Of a stretch of DNA of 64,000 nt, positions 1,516 through 4,678 are shown in pieces. The notes under the pieces are model-generated. The model ran no database searches. It was not told the DNA's origin and saw nothing but the letters and a program-made list of their open reading frames with translations. Positions within the stretch are counted from its first letter, which is position 1. Each line of letters opens with the position of its first letter. The position numbers and the translations under genes are program-made. The DNA is taken from the NCBI RefSeq assembly GCF_900230285.1, contig NZ_OCNK01000005.1:186001-250000 (forward strand), in the 5' to 3' direction. The DNA is from Blastococcus haudaquaticus. Its GTDB lineage: Bacteria > Actinomycetota > Actinomycetes > Mycobacteriales > Geodermatophilaceae.

Positions 1516-4407
1516 TCACCCGAGGACGAAGTTGACCAGACGTCCGGGGACGGCGACGACGCGGCGCACGGTGGCGCCGTCCAGGTAGCCGGCGATCTTG
1601 TCGTCGGCCCGCGCCGCTGCCTCCAGGGCCGCGGCGTCGGCGTCCGCAGGCACGCTGACCTGCGACCGCACCTTGCCGTTCACCTGGACGGCGACCTGCA
1701 CGGTGTCCTCGACCAGCCATCGCTCGTCGGCCACCGGGAAGGCGTGCCAGGCGGACGACCCCTCGTGCCCCAGCCGGGTCCACAGCTCGTCAGCCAGGTG
1801 CGGCGCCAGCGGTGCCACCAGCAGGACCAGCGGCTCGACCACCGACCGCGGAACCGGCGACGAGGCCCCGTAGGCCTGGGTCAGGTGGTTGGTCAGCTCG
1901 GTGATGCGGGCGATCGCGATGTTGAACCGCAGCGTGGAGAACCCGTCGCGCACGCCGGCGATGGTCCGGTGCAGCGCGCGGAGCGTCTCCTCACCCGGCT
2001 CGACGTCCTCGGCCGCGCGGACCTGGCCGGTCTGCTCGTCGACGACGACCCGCCAGATGCGCTGCAGCAGGCGCTGCGAGCCGACGACGGCCTTGGTCTC
2101 CCACGGCCGCGACTGGTCCAGCGGCCCGGTCGACATCTCGTACACCCGGAAGGTGTCGGCCCCGTACGCGCCGATCATCTCGTCCGGCGTGACCATGTTC
2201 TTGAGGCTCTTGCCGATCTTCCCGTACTCCCGGTTGACCGGCTTGCCCTCGTAGAGGAACTGGCCGTCCTTCTCCACCACCTCGGCCGCGGGCACGTAGA
2301 AGCCGCGCTCGTCGGTGTAGGCGAAGGCGGAGATGTAGCCCTGGTTGACCAGGCGGCGGAAGGGCTCCTCGCTGGACACGTGGCCCAGGTCGTGCAGGAC
2401 CTTGTGCCAGAACCGGGCGTACAGCAGGTGCAGGACGGCGTGCTCGACGCCGCCGACGTACAGGTCGACACCGCCGACGTCGCCCGGCTCGCGCGGGCCC
2501 AGCCAGTACTTCTCCAGCTCCGGGTCGACCATCCGCTCGTCGTCGGCGGGGTCCAGGTAGCGCAGGTAGTACCAGCACGAGCCCGCCCAGTTGGGCATGG
2601 TGTTGGTCTCGCGGCGGTACTTCTTCGGGCCGTCGCCCAGGTCCAGCTCGACCGTCGTCCACTCGGTGGCCCGGGACAGCGGTGGCTCAGGTGCGGAGTC
2701 GGCGTCGTCGTCGGCGAAGGTCTTCGGTGAGTAGTCGTCGACCTCGGGCAGCAGCACCGGCAGCATCGACGTCGGGACGGGGATCGGCAGGTCGTTCTCG
2801 TCGTAGACGATCGGGAACGGCTCGCCCCAGTAGCGCTGCCGGCTGAACAGCCAGTCGCGCAGCTTGTAGGTGGTCGTCGCCTCGCCGTGCCCGTGCTGCA
2901 CCAGCCACTCGGTGATGCGCGCGATGGCATCCGCCTTCTCGAGGCCGTCCAGCGAGATCTCGTCGTTGGCGGAGTTGATCATGGGGCCGCTGCCGGTGTA
3001 CGCACCGCCCGCGAAGTCCTCCGGCGGCTGCACGGTGCGCACGACCGGGAGCCCGAAGACCTCCGCGAACTCGAAGTCACGGGTGTCCTCCCCCGGCACG
3101 GCCATGATCGCGCCGGTGCCGTAGCCGGTCAGCACGTAGTCGGCGATGAACACCGGCAGCTCGCGCCCGTTGACCGGGTTGACGGCGGTGACGCCCAGCC
3201 ACACGCCGGTCTTCTCCCGGCCGGCGTCCTGACGGTCCAGCTCCGACCGGCGGGAGGCCTGCCGCTGGTACGCGGCGACCGCCTCGCGGGGGGTGGCCGC
3301 TCCCCCGGTCCAGCGGGGGTCGGTGCCGTCGGGCCAGGCGTCCGCCGTCAGTGTCGCGACCAGCGGGTGCTCCGGTGCCAGCACCATGTACGTGGCGCCG
3401 AACAGCGTGTCCGGCCGGGTCGTGAACACCTCGACGGTCTCGGCGCCGGCAGCGAACCGGACTTTCGCGCCGTTGGATCGGCCGATCCAGTTGCGCTGCA
3501 TGAGCCTCAGCGAGTCCGACCAGTCCATGCGGTCCAGGTCGTCGATCAGCCGGTCCGCGTAGGCGGTGATCCGCATCATCCACTGCTTGAGCGGCCGCCG
3601 GAACACGGGGAAGTTGCCGCGCTCGGAGCGGCCGTCGGCGGTGACCTCCTCGTTGGACAGCACGGTGCCCAGCCCCGGGCACCAGTTCACCGGCGCCTCG
3701 TTGAGGTAGGCCAGCCGGTGCGCGTCGACGACGGTGCGGCGCGCGACGTCGTCCAGCTCGGCCCAGGGCAGCCCGGAGGGATTGGTGCCCGCGGTGGGCG
3801 TGCGCGTCCCGGCGTCCAGCTCGGCGACCAGGTCCTCGATCGGGCGGGCCTTGCCGGCGGACTCGTCGAACCAGGAGCCGAACAGCTGCAGGAAGATCCA
3901 CTGGGTCCACTTGTAGTAGCCCGGGTCGATCGTGGCGAAGCTGCGGCGGTCGTCGTGGTCGACGCCCAGGCGGCGCAGCTGCGCCTTGATGGCCGCGATG
4001 TTGGCCTCGGTCGTGACCCGCGGGTGCTGCCCGGTCTGGACGGCGTACTGCTCGGCGGGCAGGCCGAAGGCGTCGTAGCCCATCGGGTGCAGGACGTTGT
4101 CGCCGTCCATGCGGCGGAACCGGCTGGTGACATCGGTGCCCAGGTAGCCCAGCGGGTGGCCGACGTGCAGCCCGGCACCCGAGGGATACGGGAACATGTC
4201 CATCAGGAAGTACTTCGGCCGGTCGGCCACCCGCTCGAAGCCCTCGCTCAGCCGGCCGGTCGGGTTGGGCGTGTGGAAGGTGCCCTCGGCCTCCCAGCGG
4301 TCCTGCCAGGCGAGCTCGATCTGCTGGGCCAGCGCGGGCGTGTAGCGGTGCGGGGGAACGTCACCCGTGTGCTGCTCGACGTCGGGCTGGTCGGCGGTCT
4401 GGCTCAT
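1516..4407 (-). CDS. leuS: Leucyl-tRNA synthetase
   Basis: Class I aminoacyl-tRNA synthetase that charges tRNA-Leu in the cytoplasm. The product is 963 residues, normal for bacterial LeuRS plus a short N-terminal extension. The HIGH-type motif appears as HVGH at residues 81-84 inside [16 protein letters not shown]. The KMSKS-type motif appears as KIGKS near residue 730 ([14 protein letters not shown]). Between them are the CP1 editing domain ([19 protein letters not shown]) and the WEWD-region equivalents ([10 protein letters not shown]). The gene stands alone, transcribed away from the GGDEF-EAL gene. About 100-135 bases upstream is a leader peptide with three consecutive leucine codons plus two hairpins, described separately, which suggests transcription attenuation. 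Confidence 0.98.
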
Positions 4408-4452: not shown

Positions 4453-4480
4453 ATGAAGAAACCCCTCACGCAGGAGGGGT
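4453..4480 (-). terminator. Attenuator terminator in the leuS leader
   Basis: Read on the minus strand, ACCCCTC pairs with GAGGGGT around the 6-base loop CTGCGT, and the stem runs straight into TTTCTTC. This is a compact intrinsic terminator, with arms at 4474-4480 and 4461-4467, placed between a leucine-rich leader ORF and leuS. The 3' arm contains TGAGGG, which can also pair with CCCTCA from the upstream hairpin, so an antiterminator conformation is possible. Confidence 0.7.
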
Positions 4481-4482
4481 CG

Positions 4483-4515
4483 CCGTGCTGTCTGAGGGTC
4501 TCAGCGTCAGCACGG
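4483..4515 (-). other. Pause/antiterminator hairpin of the leuS leader
   Basis: An inverted repeat with outer arms CCGTGCTG and CAGCACGG and inner arms CTGAG and CTCAG, with small bulges. Its 5' arm on the minus strand lies within the last codons of the leader ORF, so a ribosome stalled on the Leu codons (4522-4530) would open this stem and free CCCTCA to pair with the terminator arm. The structure is read directly; the switching mechanism is inferred. Confidence 0.6.
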
Positions 4516-4542
4516 CCGGTGAAGCAGGAGCCGCCCGGTCAC
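4507..4542 (-). CDS. leuS leader peptide (MTGRLLLHRPC)
   Basis: An 11-codon ORF starting at GTG (4542) and ending TGA (4509-4507), preceded by AGG about 8 bases upstream of the start. It encodes M-T-G-R-L-L-L-H-R-P-C, with three consecutive leucine codons (CTC CTG CTT) read by different tRNA-Leu species. It is followed by a hairpin overlapping its stop codon and then by a terminator before leuS. This is the classical layout of ribosome-mediated attenuation, and the codons match the amino acid handled by the downstream enzyme. Charged tRNA-Leu shortage would stall the ribosome and permit read-through into leuS. It is too short for routine gene callers. Confidence 0.65.
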   Translation of the reverse strand: MTGRLLLHRPC

Positions 4543-4678
4543 CCCGGCAGCCTACCGCGACGCGCCGTCCCGGGATCTCGCCGGGCAGGGTGCGCCCCGC
4601 CGTCCGGGCTTCACCCCTCCGCCTGTATTCGCCCGCATTCGGCTCCGGTACCGGCGACCGGACGCCGATGACATCCCC

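Follow-up and report, generated by a model that had tools for sequence, protein, structure and literature searches.

The window analysed here is the whole 64,000-nt stretch of DNA from Blastococcus haudaquaticus, and coordinates are positions within it. The leucyl-tRNA synthetase gene leuS occupies 1516–4407 on the minus strand (ATG at 4407; NCBIfam TIGR00396 leuS_bact, E 2.2e-267), and the leader and hairpins that precede it are all on the same strand. An ORF with a GTG start at 4507–4542 encodes the leader peptide MTGRLLLHRPC, a peptide type shared with relatives, in 11 sense codons (GTG ACC GGG CGG CTC CTG CTT CAC CGG CCG TGC TGA). Its leucine run CTC CTG CTT (4522–4530), already reported in a first-pass annotation of this DNA, is plain in the sequence; the last of the three, CTT (4524–4522), is our proposed sensor codon and lies 8 nt 5′ of a hairpin designated H1, in keeping with the rule found in relatives. 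A putative −10 box, TAGGCT (4549–4554), ends 6 nt before the leader GTG. The 5′ arm of H1 (GCCGTGCTG, 4508–4516) starts within the last leader codons, includes two of the three stop-codon bases, and is assigned from pairing and double changes in the family alignment. Its 3′ arm (CAGCACGGC, 4482–4490), placed from the alignment and the H1–T gap, lies directly 5′ of the terminator hairpin T (GACCCCTC-CTGCGT-GAGGGGTT, 4460–4481), with no nucleotide between them. T was found by terminator scan and is paired in relatives. The terminator and its tail, TTTCTTC, are as first annotated, except that the 3′ end of the tail is at 4455 and not 4453.

The scan of the leader strand gave two overlapping terminator matches, against 0.1 (sd 0.3) in shuffled sequences. 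As a single sequence the leader folds with only mildly unusual stability (z −1.58; 15 of 200 shuffles equally stable), and no Rfam family, including the T-box core, reached its gathering score anywhere in the window. The sequence of the T hairpin occurs once in this genome, together with one site carrying a mismatch (L216, contig C5:62725–62742, minus strand). A 16-codon frame (4454–4404, minus strand) begins directly after the terminator tail; the GAGGGG of the terminator is a possible ribosome site for it, and it ends in a stop codon that overlaps the start of leuS (ATGA). The corresponding ATG after the terminator is in frame with leuS in some relatives, and the mini-ORF is present in some of ten loci inspected.

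How general is this arrangement? DNA upstream of leuS was gathered from 198 loci, drawn from LeuS searches at the levels of genus, family and class, from fetched regions and from the best 80 loci among named genomes. A leader with a Leu run, followed by H1 and T at the same position, is found in the Geodermatophilaceae (typically MTGRLLLxRPC), in Streptomyces (MRAVRLLLSEPR), in a group with MRGLLLLIGPR, and in others. Some family leaders have fewer Leu codons, namely MTGRFLLHRPC (L005), MTGGLELFRPC (L014), MTGRLLPRPC (L122) and MRRFSLLPRPY (L183 and L184). Not every actinobacterium has the element: loci of Nocardia, Aeromicrobium and Mycolicibacterium (L040, L045, L050, L068) and others yielded no leader. 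Among the best 80 loci of named genomes, the non-actinobacterial ones have scattered LLL ORFs without the leader–H1–T layout, as judged by eye.

Two alignments were made. A1 comprises 62 distinct Geodermatophilaceae leaders, from which L122 is absent, having been missed by the search pattern, and A2 comprises 43 class-wide leaders in which Streptomyces loci align with that of the window; L037, L113 and L156 were left out of the alignments, and L081 was judged a chance ORF and excluded. In A1, 99.4% of the cells of H1 and T together are paired (99.3% for H1 alone and 99.6% for T alone). There are 14 double-change cells compared with 1.1 in shuffles (none of 500 reached 14), and within H1 double changes fall at three pairs. 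RNAalifold applied to A1 predicted exactly two helices, H1 and T. In A2, 96.4% of cells are paired, with 38 double-change cells against 12.8 in shuffles (0/500), and the number of pairs with a double change is five against 3.2 (22/500). Conservation across genomes, together with compensatory changes in H1 and T, shows that the element is real rather than a product of chance. The first-pass annotation had described a hairpin beginning inside the last leader codons, then a terminator, then leuS, had read these as a leucine leader-peptide attenuator, and had proposed looking in an alignment for conserved Leu codons and covarying stems; the layout is confirmed, and the presence of both lends support to that reading.

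A covariance model built on A2 (R1; trained on 43 sequences, 21 of them from Geodermatophilaceae) matches 54 of 54 Geodermatophilaceae genomes, representing 12 of 12 genera. Across the class, 180 of 394 genomes and 75 of 138 genera have a match at E ≤ 0.01, and at E ≤ 0.001 there are matches in 14 of 246 genomes sampled from the phylum, of which 13 are within the class and one (G534) outside. The class genomes lacking a match comprise 20 listed ones, all of a single family (f2) in the same order, and 194 more. Downstream of the class matches inspected, leuS was found in 88 of 90 (29 of the 30 best and 59 of 60 that we selected); the two exceptions, L219 and L295, sit on short contig ends. One genome (G272) has two R1 loci, L231 and L256, each followed by a leuS-like gene, with 46 and 67% identity to the N-terminal part of the LeuS of the window. 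Another family, f28, has 8-codon leaders such as MRRTLLLT at ten loci (L288, L291, L293, L294, L296, L299, L311, L316, L318 and L323), alongside longer ones. In these short leaders a TAG stop sits right where H1 begins, with the spacing from CTT to H1 the same as elsewhere, so that the stop seems to have shifted with the hairpin staying in place.

H1 and T could be located in 184 of 187 loci, corresponding to 135 distinct leaders when identical ones are counted once; there was no call in L113, L157 and L335, L319 was left out as lying at a contig end, and in L306 and L330 we placed the leader start at the start of the covariance model. In 133 of the 135 a TAnnnT motif ends 6 nt (85 leaders) or 7 nt (48 leaders) upstream of the start codon, compared with 10 occurrences in 6750 control positions (50 downstream positions per leader). 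A box so placed makes the leader start codon the probable start of transcription. In the window the start would thus probably be at or beside 4542, the GTG of the leader, and a start downstream of 4507, which would undo the attenuator reading, is unlikely from the position of the −10 box. We consider it highly probable that the leuS leader is leaderless. In agreement, the leuS leader peptide leuL2 of S. lividans, MRAVRLLLSEPR, was reported in 2021 from RNA-seq to be leaderless and accompanied by a terminator (PMC8079986).

In 129 of the 135 leaders the called start of H1 is in frame, and we designate as codon −8 the codon whose first base is 8 nt before H1. This is CTT in 114, CTC in 15 and CTG in none, counts that come from leaders related by descent and so are not independent events, as holds also for the spacings below; the remaining six leaders have CTT or CTC 7–10 nt before the called H1 start. 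CTT is rare in these genes. In leuS itself it makes up 0.4–0.6% of Leu codons, CTC being 4–9% and CTG 86–93%, and in the ORFs of the window it accounts for 10 of 1747 Leu codons, with 651 CTC, in a mechanical ORF set that may include false frames. The preference weakens in the 5′ direction, to CTC 69, CTG 37 and CTT 22 one codon away, and weaker again to CTG 46, CTC 45 and CTT 10 two codons away. CTT is retained even where the Leu run is shifted or broken (L126, L014, L330), and it lies 8 nt from H1 in 114 of the 123 leaders that contain one. The leader stop codon starts at +7 relative to H1 in 102 of the 135, at −2 in 15, at +10 in seven and elsewhere in the rest, and the H1 loop ranges from 3 to 41 nt. 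Since stop position and loop length both vary, the conserved quantity is the distance from the sensor codon to H1.

By the wobble rules CUU is read by anticodon GAG, with possible help from UAG. All 47 tRNA matches in this genome were read, and the tRNA-Leu anticodons are UAG, CAG, GAG, UAA and CAA, one of each, so that CUU should be decoded by tRNA-Leu(GAG). The choice of CTT or CTC, and never CTG, at codon −8 in spite of the rarity of CTT points to the same tRNA. We therefore think it probable, with good confidence, that the CUU/CUC codon is the sensor in the leuS leaders, and tRNA-Leu(GAG) would then be the isoacceptor sensed. CUU, CUC and CUA have been named as low-rate codons, of highly variable rate, in leucine-starved E. 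coli (PMC3783181), and selective-charging theory accounts for the choice of codons in leaders (PMC1183508). A literature search at the level of titles and the beginnings of abstracts returned no report of leader sensing fixed at one such codon. The principle of codon choice is thus known, and the codon −8 rule of leuS is new here.

Two further ideas were discarded. CUU is a slippery codon, and a ribosomal frameshift there was considered, but over 45 loci the spacing between the leader stop and the ATG of leuS, taken modulo 3, is distributed 17/15/13; no frame is kept, and so the idea was rejected. The T loop was considered as a sequence-specific site; CTGYGY was dominant in the first leaders, but many later ones have other loops.

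Textbook attenuators switch by means of two mutually exclusive hairpins. Applied to leuS, a ribosome on the Leu codons would cover the 5′ arm of H1, and the freed 3′ arm would pair with the loop and arm of T and prevent its formation, the candidate antiterminator having the core UCAGCRCGG:CCUGYGYGA, extended in the window by CCCTCA:TGAGGG. The leader, overlapping hairpin and terminator follow the textbook layout, and antiterminator hairpins have been stated for two Streptomyces leuS leaders (PMC1262725). Moreover, when 116 distinct sequences were folded with T forbidden, the 3′ arm of H1 often paired with the T loop. This promising candidate then failed both swap and shuffle controls. Arms and loops from the same leader pair with a mean of −6.48 kcal/mol, compared with −6.82 for swapped partners (1967 of 2000 permutations did at least as well) and −7.03 for shuffled arms, and in 18 representative leaders the leader's own T loop was indistinct from shuffled loops. 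The CCCTCA:TGAGGG helix, which the first-pass annotation had called a ready antiterminator, can indeed form in the window sequence; its proposed role is unsupported, and we reject it because it is not conserved in A1, where it is paired in 57.4% of cells, as against 39.9–51.4% in slid controls, with one double-change cell.

Folding calculations also weigh against an antiterminator. Losing T would cost a mean of 8.8 kcal/mol (range 1.3–14.4) over the 116 distinct sequences. We modelled the stalled ribosome by removing RNA up to an edge counted from the start of H1, with +5 as our estimate for a ribosome having codon −8 in its A site. At that edge, in equilibrium folds, the predicted probability of T, P(T), falls below 0.5 in none of the 135 leaders, and for edges from −2 to +15 the mean is at least 0.927 at each. 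The lowest values occur at +12 and +13, where seven of the 135 leaders are below 0.5, including that of the window (0.42 at +12, 0.01 at +13, 0.00 at +14 and 0.07 at +15). In the model this loss is the formation of CCCTCA:TGAGGG with the ribosome close to the stop codon rather than at the Leu codons. In prefix RNA ending before the 3′ arm of T, the 5′ arm of T is predicted to be unpaired to the extent of 0.87 when H1 may form, 0.70 when the ribosome sits on codon −8, and 0.53 when the spacer is shuffled, and covering the 5′ arm of H1 lowers the unpaired fraction by more than 0.2 in 54 of the 135. In these calculations, therefore, covering H1 costs the T 5′ arm some freedom, in the direction that the textbook scheme needs, yet less than random sequence would. 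Neither conservation, nor the swap and shuffle controls, nor equilibrium folding has revealed an antiterminator, while a kinetic one would be compatible with the folds. On balance we regard the mutually exclusive hairpin scheme as rather doubtful for leuS.

That the element is a ribosome-mediated transcription attenuator of leuS we hold with great confidence; leucine supply would control read-through into the gene, and leuS expression is very probably raised by it when leucine runs short. The manner in which the stalled ribosome acts is another matter. Our best explanation as a whole, a tentative one, is an attenuator in which the ribosome docks on H1. RNA polymerase would begin at the leader GTG, and a ribosome would load on the 5′ end of the RNA and translate behind the moving polymerase. 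With ample leucine it would clear the Leu codons, open H1 and leave at the stop, whereupon T would fold and transcription stop. A shortage of charged tRNA-Leu, and chiefly of the GAG isoacceptor decoding CUU and CUC, would hold the ribosome with CUU in its A site, 5 nt short of the base of H1. The folded H1 would shorten the RNA path to about 33 nt from the P site to the end of T, or about 40 nt with the polymerase on the U tract; docked on H1 and thus near RNA polymerase, the ribosome would block T, and transcription would read through into leuS.

The geometry of the leaders is consistent with this docking. The gap between H1 and T is 0 nt in 99, 1 nt in 31 and 2 nt in five of the 135 leaders. 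Downstream helices meet the ribosome at about +12 from the P site, as known from frameshift and toeprint work, and when CUU occupies the A site H1 begins close to this point, at nucleotide +12 counted from the P-site codon. With H1 folded out, the distance from the P site to the end of T is 33.2 nt (sd 2.2, range 29–43), of which 11 nt are fixed by the codon rule, so that only the gap and the length of T contribute to the small spread. With H1 unfolded the distance is 70.3 nt (sd 8.6), and from the stop codon it is 55.6 nt (sd 8.6). The U tract adds about 7 nt, giving a spacing of about 40 nt that lies in the coupled and not the collided range, a point against docking. Collided ribosome–polymerase conformations have been described at 37 nt or less, with structures extending up to 47 nt (PMC11711091), modelling has been cited in which collided complexes do not permit terminator hairpins (PMC10953045, PMC7858274), and with pyrL in vitro a trailing ribosome lowered termination from 21.5 to 9.9% (PMC10135430). 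From the spacing and this coupling work we infer that a stalled ribosome held close by folded H1 would block T. The parts of the element rest on strong evidence and the docking and blocking step on circumstantial evidence, and docking without an antiterminator is a proposal to which we give somewhat less than even weight.

The same close apposition could have another meaning, with H1 acting as a helper of the terminator, either stacked on T or as a pause hairpin, such that termination would be weakened by a ribosome on CTT melting the base of H1. This would require neither an antiterminator nor contact between ribosome and polymerase. It accords with the 0–2 nt gap in all 135 leaders and with the predicted pairing of H1, which is 0.92 with the ribosome edge at +3 and falls to 0.10 at +8. 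Against this, T alone is predicted to be stable without H1 at every edge, and a stall on either of the first two Leu codons would leave H1 whole. We consider a helper role improbable.

How does the docking proposal stand beside known systems? Attenuators of leuS, antiterminator included, were predicted in 2005 in S. avermitilis and S. coelicolor (PMC1262725). The first-pass annotation had called ribosome-mediated attenuation of leuS less well known than T-box control, a view to be qualified in that it has already been described in actinobacteria, in Streptomyces (PMC1262725, PMC8079986). Because attenuators of Streptomyces leuS had already been predicted or seen, the present leader belongs to a known kind. 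It shares with those of Streptomyces the gene, a short LLL leader, a hairpin over the leader end, a terminator and alignable loci, and the position of the window −10 box fits their leaderless start; they were published as classical with an antiterminator, whereas we find no conserved one. What is new here is the codon −8 rule, the H1–T junction, the missing antiterminator and the conservation of the layout, near to nucleotide level, in many actinobacteria.

The classical trp, his and leu attenuators of enterobacteria likewise have a leader peptide with cognate codons, an overlapping hairpin and an intrinsic terminator. Unlike them, the leuS leader is putatively leaderless, no exclusive antiterminator was found, and its two hairpins are adjacent and compatible. 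T-box leaders also make a synthetase gene depend on tRNA charging, but the leuS leader needs a translated ORF and has no T-box match. The leuS leader can also be likened to the pyrBI (pyrL) leader of E. coli, in which the nearness of the ribosome is proposed to block the terminator without an antiterminator, and with which the modelled leuS spacing is compatible. There UTP is sensed through polymerase pausing, whereas in leuS the ribosome would stall on Leu codons and the folded hairpin would bring it close. The ilvBNC leader of C. glutamicum is another near-leaderless branched-chain leader peptide with a terminator in an actinobacterium (PMC11857589). In contrast to the leuS leader, where no antiterminator was found, it has a three-hairpin model with an overlapping antiterminator backed by mutations, and this counts against our proposal of docking without one (PMC11857589). 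In S. coelicolor, mutations of leader codons in leuA are at odds with classical attenuation (PMC1262725), and in ilvB regulation stayed the same when candidate regulatory codons were changed (PMC1262725, citing its reference 22); the ilvB result speaks against any leader-codon model in S. coelicolor, docking included. Attenuation of ilvB1 has been described in M. tuberculosis (PMC13236596). If docking is correct, a stalled ribosome beside the polymerase would be a second way to make an amino-acid sensor from a terminator, and would offer a genetically tractable test of how ribosome–polymerase contact affects termination. Under the one-codon rule each of these leaders would report naturally on a single tRNA isoacceptor, and codon −8 together with the H1–T junction provides a handle for finding similar leaders in other genomes.

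The element is not restricted to leuS. Ten genomes have more than one R1 match, 21 matches in all, and one of the eleven extra matches (L256) is before a leuS. Seven extra loci were tested, of which four precede citramalate synthase (cimA) and have leaders with Ile codons, two precede acetolactate synthase (ilvB), and for the seventh (L265) no family was matched. The genome of the window has leaders of both types on the minus strand of contig C2. Its ilvB leader (L383) ends ...SLILVVA, with GTC at −8 and a gap of 1 nt between H1 and T; its cimA leader (L386) ends ...TIIIS, with ATC at −8 and no gap. In both, the G of the TAG stop is the first base of H1, and P(T) is at least 0.90 at the nine edges tested. 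They thus share the geometry of the leuS leader, a point in favour of docking. In other genomes seven of eight tested leaders of these types have an in-frame branched-chain codon at −8 (six ATC and one CTT) with a gap of 0, and the remaining one (L263) has an H1 call that starts out of frame. One ilvB-type leader (L260) is predicted to lose T at one edge, with P 0.04 at +10.

These leaders bear on a last alternative, that there is no leucine control at all and that the locus makes a conserved short terminated RNA, or has a housekeeping terminator, with an incidental Leu run. The Leu codons, the choice of codon at −8, the leaderless start and the spacing of H1 are nevertheless kept across the class, and the related leaders of cimA and ilvB have codons for Ile, Val or Leu, as suits the genes behind them; we regard an absence of control as very improbable. 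The leaders of cimA that combine Ile codons with H1 and T (L386, and also L257, L259, L262 and L263) are likely to be isoleucine attenuators built like that of leuS. A literature search combining citramalate synthase, leader peptide and attenuation returned, among the entries as listed, a single paper, on a methanogen. As a more speculative generalization, which may well prove wrong, leuS, ilvB and cimA could form an actinobacterial class of attenuators without an antiterminator, in which a hairpin set between the sensor codon (8 nt) and the terminator (0–2 nt) would bring the stalled ribosome against the polymerase, the sensor of leuS being one CUU/CUC codon and hence tRNA-Leu(GAG). Leaders resembling the cimA type are also present at L258, L261 and L264.
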